Source: Parcubacteria group bacterium
GTDB taxonomy: Bacteria > Patescibacteriota > Minisyncoccia > Phycocordibacterales > WO2-35-19
Length of the DNA stretch: 56,285 nucleotides
Reading direction: 5' to 3'
Assembly (NCBI GenBank): GCA_012514175.1
Contig: JAAZAU010000001.1
Location: forward strand, 1-56,285
Shown here piece after piece: positions 49,258 through 55,542 of this stretch. Position 1 is the first letter of the stretch, and every line of letters begins with the position of its first letter. A program made the position numbers and the translations under genes. Below the pieces are notes generated by a model. The model did no database searches. It had not been told where the DNA came from and saw nothing but the letters and a program-made list of their open reading frames with translations.

Positions 49258-51057
49258 TCACTTTTTCACAAGCGATAAGCATGTCATAATATGAAAAAGT
49301 CGGTCTGACACATCTCTTGTAAAAAATTTCTTTTTGCCAAAACCATGAGCGAAATCATTTCTCAAATTCATTCCTAATTTTTCCGTCAGCACCAATCTGA
49401 AGTAAAAAGCCATATTTTGCCCCGTTCCAGCAAAAACTCTTTCAATAATTTCACCTTGTTTGTTCAATAATTGGCGAAGGGTAAGGCGATCGTATCCGCC
49501 AAGATTATTTGGCCTCAAAACAATACCACCGCAATTTTTTACCAATTCCCTGATTGCGCTTTCGATCAACGGACTGAACAAGTGTGAAGAAACAAGATAA
49601 TCATTATCCCAATATACTGAGATTGCTCGCTCTAAATACTCTTTATTTTCATTCTCAAAAAGTGTTGAGTTTCTAAAATAATCCGTAATGTTTTGTTTAG
49701 AAACTCGCTTTTTCAGTTCATCGATCACAAGAGTTAGAAAAAACGAACCAAATTGAATATACTGCGAAGCGTATCGCTGGAAATGATTGTCGTAATCTTC
49801 CCCAAGCGTGGAAAGTTTAGCTATTGGTATTCCGTCATCGGAAATAATTTGTGTCGTGCATAAAAACTGGATCGGGTGTTTTCCGGAAACATCTTTTAAT
49901 TGCTTTTCTACCGCTTCTTTTTTCGGTAAAAAATTGATTGCTATTTTAGCGATAATCGCTTCTAATTTACTTTGCTCTTTCTCGCCAAAAATTGCTTTCA
50001 AAAAATCGTCAATATCTTTCTGTTTTATTTCCGTTGTTACGGAAATTTCTTTGAGGGATTTATTCCAATCCAAGTCCAGCTGCCCCATTTCCTGCGAAAT
50101 TCTGTTGCTGGCGGCTGTTGCCTTTGAAAATCCTTTGTCTCTGTATTTTTGATATATCTCGTGTACTTTTTCGTATGCGTGTACTTTCAATAATGCGTCA
50201 GAATTTGTGCGGTCGTTTGTTTTTAATAATTTTTCCAAAACATCTAAAACACGCATTAAATTATCTTCGTCTTTTTCGTTTGCGTAATATTCAGCAAGCA
50301 AGGAAACGGCGTTTTCCGCCAGCCACACATCTTTTTCAACCCTTTTCAACCTATCTTCTAACGCTTTAATCAATTCCGATTTTTCTGTTTCCGTAATCGT
50401 AATTTTTTTTTCAAAATCCAAAATGAGCCACTTAAAAGCAAAGCCCCACAGCCCCGGCTTATCGTCTGTCGCCACTTTTTTCTCAAGATTGATTATTGCT
50501 TCTTTTGCTTTGGCGATTTTTTCTTGATTGTTAATTTGAATTGCCAAAACTAACGCTCTTTTGATTTTTGTTTTGCAATCAAGAGGGTCGGCTAATGATT
50601 TTTCGCAAATTGCGATATTTGAATCTATAACTATCTGAAACAAATCAATATCGGCACTTTTGTTTATAACTTTCGGTGAAAAATCAACAACCAAATCGGC
50701 GTAGCGTGATGATAAAATAGGGTTTTTGCTTTCCTTTGCTCTTTTTGTCCAATATTCCAACATTTCTTGATCCACTTGCCTAATACTTGGATATTCCACC
50801 ATTTGTTCTTTGTTGTCTGGTAAAACAAACATTGGTCCATGATAAGTTTCCCAGTCATTATTATCATTCGGATAATCTGCCATGAAATCAAAAGCTATTT
50901 GCTCCGCAATGTCTTCTTTTGTTGGCTCATATTGTTTATCTTTTTTGAGAAGATCTTTTATTTTTTGTGCAATATTATGCTCTCTACAAAAAGACGTAGG
51001 AGTTATTTGTTCTCGTTCTAAACTTTCAAGATATTTTTTTACCTCATTATTGAGCAT
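49258..51057 (-). CDS. DUF4209-like protein with C-terminal HEPN-type RX4H motif
   Basis: GGIVLRPNNLGGYDRLTLRQLL...NMAFYFRLVLTEKLGMNLRNDFAHGFGKKKFF; RNDFAH fits RX4H. Confidence 0.7.
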   Translation of the reverse strand: MLNNEVKKYLESLEREQITPTSFCREHNIAQKIKDLLKKDKQYEPTKEDIAEQIAFDFMADYPNDNNDWETYHGPMFVLPDNKEQMVEYPSIRQVDQEMLEYWTKRAKESKNPILSSRYADLVVDFSPKVINKSADIDLFQIVIDSNIAICEKSLADPLDCKTKIKRALVLAIQINNQEKIAKAKEAIINLEKKVATDDKPGLWGFAFKWLILDFEKKITITETEKSELIKALEDRLKRVEKDVWLAENAVSLLAEYYANEKDEDNLMRVLDVLEKLLKTNDRTNSDALLKVHAYEKVHEIYQKYRDKGFSKATAASNRISQEMGQLDLDWNKSLKEISVTTEIKQKDIDDFLKAIFGEKEQSKLEAIIAKIAINFLPKKEAVEKQLKDVSGKHPIQFLCTTQIISDDGIPIAKLSTLGEDYDNHFQRYASQYIQFGSFFLTLVIDELKKRVSKQNITDYFRNSTLFENENKEYLERAISVYWDNDYLVSSHLFSPLIESAIRELVKNCGGIVLRPNNLGGYDRLTLRQLLNKQGEIIERVFAGTGQNMAFYFRLVLTEKLGMNLRNDFAHGFGKKKFFTRDVSDRLFHIMTCLSLVKK

Positions 51058-51114
51058 ATTTTTGATAGAATTTGCTGTGGATAATTGACTACGGACTTTC
51101 TATTTTCTTTCTAT

Positions 51115-51132
51115 TATACTATAAGAAGTATA
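51115..51132. promoter_or_regulatory. Inverted repeat TATACT-N6-AGTATA, candidate LexA operator
   Basis: Perfect 6-bp arms in the 104-bp divergent intergenic region, 30 bp before the LexA-methyltransferase start. Confidence 0.45.
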
Positions 51133-51161
51133 GATTTAACAAAAGATAAAGTGAAATATTT

Positions 51162-52694
51162 ATGCTTACAAAAAAACAGAAACAAGTTTTAGATTTTATA
51201 TCCTCCTATCACAAGAAAAAGGGATATGCCCCTTCTTTGGAAGAGATACGCAAAAAACTTAAAGTTGCCTCTGTTTCAACCGCCCATTTCCATGTAAAAA
51301 ATTTGCAGAATTTGGGATTTATCGGGAAGCAAGATAATAGACCAAGGTCAATTGATATTTATGAAAAGGAAAAAATGGTAAATGTTCCATTACTTGGATT
51401 AATTGCGGCTGGTCAACCTATTGAAGCGATACAAAGTCAAAACAGAGAAACAATCGCCGTTCCAAGAAGTAAAATATCTCGCAATGGTGAATTTTACGCT
51501 TTAAGAGTAGTTGGTGACAGTATGATTGATGAAAATATAAATGACGGCGATTTAGTTTTAGTTAAACAACAAGATACCGCTAAGAATGGACAAAAAATAG
51601 TTGCCCTTGTGGACAACTATGAAGCTACTTTGAAAAAATTTTATAAAGAAAAAAATTATATAAGATTACAACCTGCGAACAAAACAATTGAGCCGATTAT
51701 TATAAAAAGAAATAGAGAGTTAACAATACAAGGTATTGTTATTGATGTAATAAAAAATGAAGAAGAGATACAAGCTGAAACACTTTTAGAAAATAAAGAA
51801 ATAAAAAGAAGTCAAACACTTCCTTTGAATAAAATTATTTTAGGCGATGCCGTAGAAGAATTAAAAAAATTACCAAATGAAAGTTGTGATGTTGTTATTA
51901 TTGATCCACCATATAATATCGGAAAGGATTTTGGAAATAACTTAGATAAGCGCGAATTAAAAGAATATGTCGCTTGGTGTAAAGAATGGATAAATGAATC
52001 AATTCGGGTTATGAAGCCCACGGGAACAATGTTTATTTATGGGTTTAGTGAAATACTCGCCTATCTTTCAGTTGAAATTTCGATCAATAAACGCTGGCTT
52101 ATTTGGCATTACACAAACAAAAATGTTGCCTCGTTAAATTTTTGGCAAAGAAGCCACGAGGCTATAATTTGCGCTTGGAAAGATATCCCAATTTTTAATA
52201 AAGATGATGTTAGAGAGCCATACACTGAAGGTTTTTTAAATGGAGCCGCGGGAAAAGTTAGAAAAGGAACCGCTGGGAGATTTAGCCGTAATGGAAAAGA
52301 AACAATTTATAATGCTCATGCTGGCGGGGCTTTACCTCGCGATGTAATAAAAATACCAGCTTTAGCTGGTGGAGCGGGAATGAATGAAAGATGGTTTATT
52401 TGTAAAACTTGTAAAAATCAAGTTTTTGAGCCAAGAGAATTAAAAAACCATGCAAAGCATGATATAGTCAAGCACCCTACGCAAAAACCTCTTGAATTAT
52501 CAAAAAAATTAGTGATGTCCGCAATGCCCAAAAAAGACGGGGTTGTGTTGGTGCCATTTGTTGGAACCGGTTCTGAGTGTGTAGCAGCTAAAAAGTTGGG
52601 TCAATCTTATATAGGGTTTGAAATAAATCCCGACTATATAAAATTGGCTGAAAAATATCTGGAAAAAAGCAAATACACTCCAAAATTATTTTAA
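51162..52694 (+). CDS. LexA repressor (wHTH + S24 autoprotease) fused to a DPPY-type beta-class DNA methyltransferase
   Basis: LTKKQKQVLDFISSYHKKKGYAPSLEEIRKKLKVASVSTAHFHVKNLQNLGFI; LGLIAAGQP (Ala-Gly); VVGDSM (Ser); EATLKKF (Lys); then VVIIDPPYNIGKDF (motif IV) and HPTQKPLELSKKL...VPFVGTGSECVAA (motif I). Confidence 0.9.
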   Translation: MLTKKQKQVLDFISSYHKKKGYAPSLEEIRKKLKVASVSTAHFHVKNLQNLGFIGKQDNRPRSIDIYEKEKMVNVPLLGLIAAGQPIEAIQSQNRETIAVPRSKISRNGEFYALRVVGDSMIDENINDGDLVLVKQQDTAKNGQKIVALVDNYEATLKKFYKEKNYIRLQPANKTIEPIIIKRNRELTIQGIVIDVIKNEEEIQAETLLENKEIKRSQTLPLNKIILGDAVEELKKLPNESCDVVIIDPPYNIGKDFGNNLDKRELKEYVAWCKEWINESIRVMKPTGTMFIYGFSEILAYLSVEISINKRWLIWHYTNKNVASLNFWQRSHEAIICAWKDIPIFNKDDVREPYTEGFLNGAAGKVRKGTAGRFSRNGKETIYNAHAGGALPRDVIKIPALAGGAGMNERWFICKTCKNQVFEPRELKNHAKHDIVKHPTQKPLELSKKLVMSAMPKKDGVVLVPFVGTGSECVAAKKLGQSYIGFEINPDYIKLAEKYLEKSKYTPKLF

Positions 52695-53375
52695 AGAATT
52701 ATCTATTTCTTTTTTCTTCGGCAAAAAAGTATCTGGTGTAAAAACAACAAAACCATTATCAAAAGCCTTTGTTCGTTTGTCTTCCAAAAATCTTAAGTAA
52801 GGCAATCTAAATTCGCCACTCTTTGTTTTTGGATCAGACAAACAAGTCGGCACTTCATATTTTATATCTATATTTTCGCCGTTATTTTTCTTTTTTCTCG
52901 GCAAAGGAACTCTGCTCATCACTCCACTAAAACTTGTTTTCTTGACTTGATAATTTAAAATACGATTTTTATAATTAACTCTTATATCTGCGCCTAAAGA
53001 ATCAAGCTCACGAGACATATCCACTGTTCCATTTCCAAAAACGGATTCGGCAACATAACCGCCGTGAATTTGAGTTATTAACCCCGCCCAAGTTCTGTAA
53101 ATTCGGGCTTCTATTCCGCGATAAAAACAATCTTTACACATTGTTGTTTTCTGTCTAAACTTTTCAAGTAAATCTCCTTTCTCTTTCGTATATCTTTTAT
53201 AAAATTTTTCAAAAGTAATAAATTTTTTCTCTTCCCAATATACTTTATATAAAAGTTCAATGGCTTGAATTCCTTTTGGCAAATCCATTTCAACAATTTT
53301 AATAGTGCTATATTTTTTTCTATAGTCTTTTAAGGGAACAGTTTGTAGAAATTTATCAAATTTTTCTAAATACAT
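52686..53375 (-). CDS. Type II restriction endonuclease, tentatively MjaI-like
   Basis: CKDCFYRGIEARIYRTWAGLITQIHGGYVAESVFG...SLGADIRVNYKNRILNYQVKKTS (D-x(n)-QxK core); convergent with and overlapping the methyltransferase 3' end. Confidence 0.65.
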   Translation of the reverse strand: MYLEKFDKFLQTVPLKDYRKKYSTIKIVEMDLPKGIQAIELLYKVYWEEKKFITFEKFYKRYTKEKGDLLEKFRQKTTMCKDCFYRGIEARIYRTWAGLITQIHGGYVAESVFGNGTVDMSRELDSLGADIRVNYKNRILNYQVKKTSFSGVMSRVPLPRKKKNNGENIDIKYEVPTCLSDPKTKSGEFRLPYLRFLEDKRTKAFDNGFVVFTPDTFLPKKKEIDNSLK

Positions 53376-53376
53376 A

Positions 53377-53595
53377 TTAAATAAAATAATTTATTTCTTT
53401 TTTATATATTTTTGCGAGTTCTTGTAATTCTGCTACATCAATTCTGCGTTCGCCTCTTTCAATTTTTGATAAATAAGATTGAGGTTTTTTTAATTTTTTA
53501 GCAACTTCTTCCTGTTTTAAACCAATTTCAAACCTAGCTTTTTTAAGCCTTTCAATAGTTTTTTTATATTCTTTTGAATAAATTGACTTGTTCAT
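53377..53595 (-). CDS. XRE-family HTH regulator (possible C protein)
   Basis: IERLKKARFEIGLKQEEVAKKLKKPQSYLSKIERGERRIDVAELQELAKIY; 72 aa, directly upstream of the endonuclease on the same strand. Confidence 0.88.
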   Translation of the reverse strand: MNKSIYSKEYKKTIERLKKARFEIGLKQEEVAKKLKKPQSYLSKIERGERRIDVAELQELAKIYKKEINYFI

Positions 53596-53609
53596 ATTAC
53601 TTTTAGTAT

Positions 53610-53628
53610 ATATCCTATTGTAGGATAT
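53610..53628. promoter_or_regulatory. Perfect inverted repeat ATATCCTA-TTG-TAGGATAT, candidate XRE operator
   Basis: 8-bp perfect arms starting 15 bp upstream of the XRE gene start codon. Confidence 0.55.
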
Positions 53629-53711
53629 CCCAAAATAGGTTATACTAATTTAGGGAGCTTCTCTCTGTTGCTCGCGCATGGGTGGGCGAGGCAAATACAG
53701 CTCAATTAATT

Positions 53712-53720
53712 TGCTATACT
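53712..53720 (+). promoter_or_regulatory. Extended -10 promoter (TGCTATACT)
   Basis: TGC + TATACT upstream of the structured leader and receiver gene. Confidence 0.5.
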
Positions 53721-53736
53721 ACATAAGTATTCAGCT

Positions 53737-53849
53737 AAGGTGTTCTTATAAATAAACACCTTATGGACTCTCAGGATTAGACTTTGGTCTAATCTTACTT
53801 TCTTTACTGGGTTCACAAGCATGGTGCTTGCGGATTCCGAGAGGTTCGG
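53737..53849 (+). promoter_or_regulatory. Structured 5' leader with four consecutive hairpins
   Basis: AAGGTGTT/AACACCTT; GATTAGAC-TTTG-GTCTAATC; CAAGCA-TGG-TGCTTG; CCGA/TCGG; then AAAAAGGAGAGAATATG. Confidence 0.55.
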
Positions 53850-53882
53850 CTCTTTGCAAACCACAAACAAAAAGGAGAGAAT

Positions 53883-54722
53883 ATGACTCATTCAAAACCA
53901 ATTAGAATTCTTTTGGTGATGGGAGACTCGCTTCTGAGAGCAGTCAAGCAGGTTTTGTTGACTGTTGGAAACAAGTCCTTGTACACTTTTGTGGAGGATG
54001 TTAGTCAGGCAGATCTTGTCATCTTCACAGAAGTTCGAGATGTTGAGCGCGGGTACGACAGGAATAAAATCTACGCGTATCTGCAGGCAGGATCAAGGGT
54101 AACAACAAAGCTACCCGAAAACTGTCTGATTATAAACACTCTTGCTGGAAATGCTGTGGAGGTTATTATCGAGGCAATTGAAAAGGCCAGAAAGCTTCTT
54201 AAACCGACCACTGAAAAGTCGGTTATTCGAAAAGAAAAATCGGTCCCGCTTCTGCCAGACGCTCTGCGGATTCTCATCATTGATGATGAGCCAATGAATA
54301 TCGCCAGTGCTAAGAAAACTCTGGCTGGGCACCGACTCTCGACAGTAACAGGCTACGAAGACGCGATGAATATTCTTGAAAAAGAAAAATTCAACGTTGT
54401 TCTCACCGACTTGCATCTGCCGATGAGTTCAAAAATGCTCAGCGACAAAGCTTTCAAGCTCGGTGAGCTCATTCCTTACGGAATTCTGCTCATGGTCGAG
54501 GCAGCGCGACGGGGTGCAAAACATGTGGCCGTCGTTACTGACCTCAATCACCATGATGACCCTTTCTCGGCAGCGTTTGATCACTACTCTAATTTTCCCG
54601 TGAAAATTGAAGGAGCGAAAGTGGTTATGATGCACGCGCCGATGATTGAAATCAAGAAAAACAAATGGGTTAAAGATTGGGCAATGGTTCTTGATTTCTT
54701 GGTTGGGGGAAACGAGTCATAA
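53883..54722 (+). CDS. Receiver-domain protein with N-terminal pseudo-receiver-like Rossmann domain, no output domain
   Basis: IRILLVMGDSLLRAVKQVLL...; LRILIIDDEPMNIASAKKTLAGH...VVLTDLHLPMSS...VAVVTDLNHHDD. Confidence 0.75.
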   Translation: MTHSKPIRILLVMGDSLLRAVKQVLLTVGNKSLYTFVEDVSQADLVIFTEVRDVERGYDRNKIYAYLQAGSRVTTKLPENCLIINTLAGNAVEVIIEAIEKARKLLKPTTEKSVIRKEKSVPLLPDALRILIIDDEPMNIASAKKTLAGHRLSTVTGYEDAMNILEKEKFNVVLTDLHLPMSSKMLSDKAFKLGELIPYGILLMVEAARRGAKHVAVVTDLNHHDDPFSAAFDHYSNFPVKIEGAKVVMMHAPMIEIKKNKWVKDWAMVLDFLVGGNES

Positions 54723-54773
54723 ATATCCCAGTTAAACAGTTCTTTTGTTCACCCGAAGGGAGGTGATAAATTG

Positions 54774-54800
54774 GGAGGATAGCATTATCCTCCTCCCATT
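54774..54800 (+). terminator. Stem-loop GGGAGGATA-GCAT-TATCCTCCTCCC, probable terminator
   Basis: Strong hairpin 3' of the receiver gene, though without a long T run. Confidence 0.5.
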
Positions 54801-54855
54801 AAAATTTTTAACACGTTTGAAGATTTTAGTGGGAGAATTTTCTCTTAAAAATCGC

Positions 54856-54884
54856 TTGACATAAAAAGTGGAATATGCTATACT
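54856..54884 (+). promoter_or_regulatory. Sigma70-like promoter (TTGACA-N17-TATACT)
   Basis: TTGACA taaaaagtggaatatgc TATACT with TGC extended -10. Confidence 0.75.
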
Positions 54885-54890
54885 TGAAGA

Positions 54891-55238
54891 GTATTGAGTT
54901 CTTTGGCATGACAGCTTCGTTTCTCCCCATAAATCCGCTAAAACGTTGGTTTATGGGGGGAGAGGAAAAAGAGCTAGCAGGCTACACACTCTAACCAAGC
55001 TTTCATAATCCCGATATCGGTGTTGAATCAAACCATACCGATATAAAAGGATAAGTTTGAAGGCCAATCAGAGGCGTGTGGGCGTTCGACTGGCGATGAC
55101 ATTTCTTCTTCCCTTTTGTTCTGTGAGCGCAGGTTGGGACAGCCTTGGCGCCGGCAAGTTCTTGTGGGGACCCAACTATAGCAGCAAACCGCTGGAGATT
55201 TCTTTTTTTTGTGAGATTTCCAGCGGTTATTTTTATTT
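54891..55238 (+). ncRNA. Structured ~350-nt transcript of unknown class with strong terminator
   Basis: Promoter at 54856; hairpin TCTCCCCATAAA/TTTATGGGG(G)GAGA (54922-54963); ATATCGGT/ACCGATAT; terminator AACCGCTGGAgAT...ATTTCCAGCGGTT at 55187-55227 followed by a T-rich run. Confidence 0.55.
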
Positions 55239-55542
55239 CAATTTTTAAAAATTAAATTCCTCCGGTTTCTGTCTTATTGCTTACTCTTTAATCTGTGCTT
55301 CCAATCTCCATTTACGATTAACAAAAGCATCAACATCTTTTTGAGTTATTTTTACATCCACTCCAGAATCTCGTGTGGCGCTATACAGTTTCCTTTTTAA
55401 GGTATATAAGATTGACTAATTTCTGTTTAGGTTTAGAGTGTAGCTACCTATGAGTTCCATTGATTATAGTCAGTTTCTAGAATTGATTTCCCCTAACAAC
55501 TTTTTTTGTTCTGGTATTTGTTGGTGTTGTATTACTTGTTAA

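Follow-up and report, generated by a model that had tools for sequence, protein, structure and literature searches.

How a type II restriction-modification (R-M) system avoids killing its own host is a long-standing question, and the answers so far are C proteins, autorepression by the methyltransferase (MTase), promoter competition and antisense RNA. A locus near one end of a 56,285-nucleotide contig of a Parcubacteria group bacterium (JAAZAU010000001.1; the window, i.e. the whole stretch that was analysed) raises this question again, as its MTase is fused to LexA, the repressor of the SOS response, and its putative restriction endonuclease gene follows a small gene of the XRE family. We conclude that this is probably a type II R-M system whose MTase is its own SOS-type repressor and is induced by DNA damage through RecA-dependent LexA cleavage. 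The source genome is 635,603 bases long and rated 100% complete, the locus being on contig C8; it has one RecA, and the fusion is the sole LexA detected in it.

The gene order is that given by the original prediction, as confirmed by reading and translating positions 50000–55500: the LexA-MTase gene faces the endonuclease gene, and the coordinates place the latter behind the 72-aa XRE gene, which ends 1 nt upstream of the endonuclease start (Table 1). The tail-to-tail overlap of the MTase gene (forward strand) and the endonuclease gene (reverse strand) is indeed 9 nt (52686–52694). Adjacent genes for a DNA MTase and a restriction endonuclease are thus present, and the assignment as an R-M locus is supported by profile searches, by PADLOC, which labels the fusion a type II MTase and the endonuclease a type II restriction endonuclease, and by the linkage of the two genes in relatives.

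Table 1. Positions in the window of the genes, regulatory sites and key residues of the LexA-MTase locus.
Feature	Position	Strand	Basis or remark
LexA-MTase fusion gene, 510 aa	51162-52694	+	translation, Pfam/NCBIfam profiles, predicted structure
TaqI-family restriction endonuclease gene, 229 aa	52686-53375	-	profile search, PADLOC
XRE regulator gene, 72 aa	53377-53595	-	profile search (HTH_3)
Divergent DUF4209 protein gene	49258-51057	-	profile search, PADLOC candidate PDC-S39
Predicted LexA operator, direct repeat TTTCTAT-TTTC-TTTCTAT, period 11, between -35 and -10	51097-51114	+	comparative
Palindrome of the original prediction, TATACTATAAGAAGTATA; first six bases are the likely -10 box	51115-51132	+	not conserved
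DnaA box TTATCCACA, just upstream of the MTase promoter	51076-51084	-	exact box enriched in fusion promoters
Phe43, recognition helix (E. coli LexA Glu45)	51288-51290	+	best covarying residue with the repeat core
Scissile Ala83-Gly84, LexA self-cleavage site	51408-51413	+	invariant in 84/84 fusions and in 13/13 fusions of the motif-free survey
Catalytic Ser120 (E. coli LexA Ser119)	51519-51521	+	invariant in fusions
Catalytic Lys158 (E. coli LexA Lys156)	51633-51635	+	invariant in 84/84 fusions; in no search motif
XRE operator site 2, palindrome ATATCCTACAATAGGATAT	53610-53628	-	conserved tandem operator
XRE operator site 1, CCTATTTTGGG, in tandem with site 2	53629-53639	-	conserved tandem operator

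The LexA-methyltransferase fusion

The fusion protein consists of LexA (residues 1–199), a flexible linker (about 200–214) and a beta-class methyltransferase with a DPPY motif (about 220–505). The LexA part is full length, with both a DNA-binding domain and an S24 peptidase domain, and scores 183.6 bits against TIGR00498, for which the cut-off is 110.95, and the MTase part matches the N6_N4_Mtase profile. In the AlphaFold model a flexible cleavage loop (84–94) and the flexible linker accompany two folded parts, and the Foldseek matches of this model are LexA (including the RecA-bound LexA structures 8trg and 8gms) and N6-adenine MTases such as M.BceJIV; the mean predicted local distance difference test score of 73.5 is moderate, and the model supports the domain folds only. 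The claim that the MTase carries its own putative repressor is borne out by the family profile, the domain profiles and the model, and this putative repressor is a complete LexA. A CxxC...H segment in the MTase (CKTCKNQVFEPRELKNHAKH, about 52400–52460), largely kept in the relative at locus L156, could bind zinc.

LexA-MTase fusions recur among Patescibacteria. A survey without motif search found them in 13 of 192 genomes of the phylum, the present one included, and the other long LexA reading frames that were checked in these genomes (L180-L182 and L046) are ordinary LexA. From a scan of 85,462 genomes 80 loci were kept. All but a few are patescibacterial; the exceptions (Ignavibacteria, Legionellaceae, Elusimicrobia and others) lie on metagenome contigs, most of them short, and could result from faulty binning. 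Among 84 fusions the S24 peptidase domain is present in all and the LexA DNA-binding domain in 83, with an MTase of the N6_N4_Mtase type in 77, a C5 methylase in four, and D12, Eco57I or N6_Mtase types in the others. No fusion covering at least 80% of the protein was found in records of 72,556 plasmids and 50,697 phages.

The scissile Ala-Gly and the catalytic Ser and Lys of LexA are all present, and their conservation bears on whether the domain responds to damage. It could instead be a constitutive autorepressor only, its peptidase domain being kept just for dimerisation: autorepression of MTases by an N-terminal helix-turn-helix domain is established (PMC3874152), and L156 has the DNA-binding part only. 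However, the cleavage residues are unneeded for dimerisation, and yet the full set (Ala83, Gly84, Ser120 and Lys158) is kept in every fusion of the motif-free survey. The motifs of the genome scan included the Ala-Gly or the Ser, so that the conservation of those residues in the larger set is biased; Lys158 was in neither motif and is nonetheless invariant there. We consider a purely constitutive role unlikely, and favour a LexA domain that is cleaved upon damage.

The methyltransferase promoter

At the MTase promoter a direct repeat with a period of 11 bp directly precedes the likely -10 box TATACT (51115–51120), and comparison with 83 fusion promoters points to this repeat as the LexA operator. 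The pattern TTC[TG][AG]-N6-TTC[TG][AG] is present in 70 of them, compared to 3.6 in windows drawn at random from these loci, and in most of the remainder the two halves of the repeat share a different core, such as CTCGG, TTTAGG or ATCGGG. At a spacing of 11 bp, 62 of the 83 contain a pair of identical 6-mers; every other spacing between 7 and 19 gives such a pair in zero to six promoters. The two half-sites match each other in 67 of 75 cases, where 30.6 would be expected. Phe43 of LexA is the best predictor of the repeat core, its correspondence to Glu45 of E. coli LexA having been aligned by hand; Phe, Tyr or His at this position goes with TTCTA or TTCGA, and Gln or Glu with TTCGG. The same type of direct repeat is found at several standalone patescibacterial lexA genes, and it resembles the alphaproteobacterial LexA box, GTTC-N7-GTTC.

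The palindrome that had been noted at this promoter, TATACT-N6-AGTATA, exists and is unique in the genome, but a role as the LexA operator is not supported and we have rejected it: the palindrome shares bases with the -10 box, and its conservation fails even at L052, despite the 95% identity of the fusion there; the conserved element is the direct repeat. Upstream of the repeat is an exact DnaA box, TTATCCACA, which occurs within the upstream 170 nt of 47 of the 83 fusion promoters (1.2 expected; 66 with one mismatch) and usually starts 21–25 nt before the direct repeat. It may couple the supply of MTase to replication, although this is a guess.

As the only LexA found in a 635-kb genome, the fusion might be the general SOS repressor of the organism, with the MTase incidental. 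The operator patterns argue otherwise, in that the exact repeat is present in this genome only at the fusion gene, only two other places fit a looser pattern, and weaker matches are no commoner than those of a reversed-pattern control; with no regulon seen in this search, we rejected the fusion as a global SOS regulator. Moreover, at least eight other fusion-bearing genomes contain an additional, separate LexA-like gene, and the fused LexAs lie apart from 28 standalone patescibacterial LexAs in a tree (support 98/86, six label changes overall) whose bootstrap is not fully settled. A general SOS role is thus very improbable, and we return to a LexA that acts on its own MTase gene.

Nuclease partners and the XRE regulator

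The locus endonuclease belongs to the TaqI family, with a match to RE_TaqI of 97.6 bits (9.6e-28; gathering cut-off 26.1) and invariant residues E110, D130 and Q143-x-K145 in the D...QxK pattern of that family; no solved structure matched it by sequence, and none significantly in a fold search. M.TaqI is a gamma-class MTase, whereas the partner here is a beta-class enzyme similar to YhdJ and M.BceJIV. The nuclease is rare, being present in 2 of 380 genomes, and in the second (L156, from the same order; 58% identical) the nuclease is likewise tail to tail with an orthologous MTase. Among 13 orthologous MTases from the genome scan, nine have a TaqI-family nuclease beside them, one ends at a contig end, and three have another neighbour, and the association of this nuclease with this MTase family, on which the original prediction depended, is upheld.

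Synteny of the wider set of loci is strongly in favour as well. More than 1 kb of downstream sequence was available for 77 distinct fusions. A convergent neighbour lies no further than 150 bp away in 63 of these, overlapping in 53 (most commonly by 4 or 9 nt), and in 32 of the 77 loci an XRE gene lies directly behind this neighbour. The partners fall into 31 BLAST clusters and at least a dozen Pfam families, with PADLOC in agreement: MvaI/BcnI (11), TaqI (9), endonuclease VII (6), MamI (4), MutH (4), BsaWI (3), BglII (2), and AlwI, ScaI, MunI and Bsp6I among others. The LexA parts of L052 and L067 share 84% while their MTases share only about 30%, and conversely L081 and L097 share 87% in the MTase and 50% in LexA. 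LexA, MTase and nuclease parts have been exchanged between systems, and the comparison shows conserved regulators bracketing an interchangeable MTase and nuclease core, the same regulators being reused with many unrelated pairs.

The perfect palindrome reported at the XRE promoter is real (ATATCCTATTGTAGGATAT, 53610–53628, with 8-nt arms) and proves to be half of a conserved tandem operator. XRE proteins with 55–86% identity to that of the locus accompany four or more nuclease clusters that are unrelated to each other, mostly together with a tandem operator similar to CCYATTTTGGGAT...CACAATAGGATATA. In the present locus a plausible -35 (TTGGGA) and -10 (TATACT) flank the second site, a position that suggests repression. 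A second, independent regulator at the nuclease gene, as had been proposed, is thus supported. Seven other XRE proteins resemble classical C proteins, a resemblance seen in the XREs of L037, L087 and L119. The locus XRE is C-protein-like in size, position and fold, and as in the C.PvuII, C.AhdI and C.Esp1396I systems its gene is directly upstream of the nuclease gene and has a tandem palindromic operator. However, it belongs to another subgroup, its operator differs in sequence from the C-box and probably mediates repression, and the MTase has a regulator independent of it. The expectation that the circuit departs from classical C-protein systems therefore holds for the LexA half, which appears to be new, but not for the XRE and nuclease half, which looks like an ordinary C-protein organisation.

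The patchy distribution, the shuffling of domains, the rarity of the nuclease and the C-protein-like XRE gene would also fit a mobile defence cassette in which LexA is an entry switch: in a recipient without resident LexA the MTase would be made at once and then shut itself down, and the XRE-nuclease unit would come on. Such a switch is compatible with damage induction, but leaves unexplained why a cleavable LexA was chosen over any other repressor, and we think it rather improbable as an account of the fusion.

Proposed circuit, known systems and neighbouring genes

In the circuit that we favour, the LexA domain would dimerise, bind the 11-bp direct repeat in the MTase promoter and so set the level of MTase, an autorepression for which the comparative evidence is strong. 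DNA breaks, arising from outside damage or from the companion nuclease cutting under-methylated self DNA, would give rise to RecA filaments, and these would promote cleavage at Ala83-Gly84 and so cut off the DNA-binding domain. Repression would then fall and more MTase would be made, and the cut protein itself should keep its methyltransferase part. The nuclease would be controlled separately, with the XRE protein limiting it through a tandem operator whose placement suits an autorepressor. SOS induction has been reported both for R-M imbalance and for post-segregational killing (PMC3874152), and therefore a nuclease cutting its own host would send a signal that the LexA-MTase could read.

Domain make-up, cleavage residues, putative operator and genetic linkage come from sequence comparison, from which we infer DNA binding, cleavage and induction. 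Several points weigh against this circuit. First, at L156 (5619–6788) the orthologous MTase has a LexA-type winged-helix DNA-binding domain without an S24 peptidase domain; because the DNA-binding domain and MTase are kept there, damage sensing is dispensable in that relative, and autorepression seems to be the basic function, to which damage sensing is an optional addition. Of the damage-sensitive regulator originally proposed, the complete and potentially damage-sensitive LexA therefore stands, but its SOS wiring is presumptive. Secondly, part of the Ala-Gly and Ser conservation in the larger fusion set is owed to the search motifs. Thirdly, the covariation between LexA residue and operator partly reflects shared ancestry, which inflates its figure. 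Finally, the activities of both enzymes, and a recognition site identical for the two, are presumed.

MTases with an N-terminal repressor domain are known, as are C-protein systems. Like the fusion, M.EcoRII, M.SsoII/Ecl18kI and M.MspI have an N-terminal DNA-binding domain and repress their own promoters, but in the fusion a complete LexA, self-cleavage residues included, takes the place of this domain and is common to several unrelated MTase classes. Compared to LexA of the SOS system, with which it shares the DNA-binding and S24 peptidase domains and the Ala-Gly, Ser and Lys, the fusion has a C-terminal DNA methyltransferase and a regulon that is apparently its own gene only. A complete LexA as the repressor domain of MTases, across several MTase classes and with exchange of parts, does not seem to have been described; no LexA-MTase fusion was described in the open-access literature searched, and neither REBASE nor most subscription journals were within that search.

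If the circuit is correct, a cleavable LexA in the antitoxin (the MTase) would provide direct feedback from self-damage to self-protection, and RecA-dependent cleavage and damage-induced methylation are predicted. That a single phylum has combined this control logic with several MTase classes and no fewer than a dozen families of nuclease points to strong selection for it in very small genomes. It is quite possible, and we advance this tentatively, that Patescibacteria have a class of R-M systems in which the LexA-MTase is a self-damage alarm and LexA and XRE are fixed bookends for swapped specificities.

A few related loci may be noted. L132, on an IMG/VR contig classed as viral, has a LexA-MTase fusion with a convergent partner and a C-like XRE gene, which suggests mobility. 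At L041 (G145:C12) an unfused 197-aa LexA of the R-M type is tail to tail with a two-gene unit, of which one product (662 aa) has a DPPY motif and the other (603 aa) is similar to the AlwI-type nuclease of L044. At L116 (4501–6024) an unfused LexA of the fused clade faces a 293-aa gene that is Mrr-like by eye, with no MTase seen nearby. An unannotated MTase on a Spiroplasma citri plasmid (L176; CP047444.1, 20322–21066) is ~50% identical to the MTase domain of the locus, with no LexA in the match.

The divergent gene that shares an intergenic region with the LexA-MTase gene encodes a DUF4209 protein with an R-x4-H motif of the HEPN type and a match to PADLOC PDC-S39. It had been counted as part of the locus, but divergent neighbours differ between loci, and of the orthologues inspected L052 alone has an evident homologue next to it, so that we rejected it as a component. 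The gene is probably a neighbour of the system, and a separate candidate defence gene.

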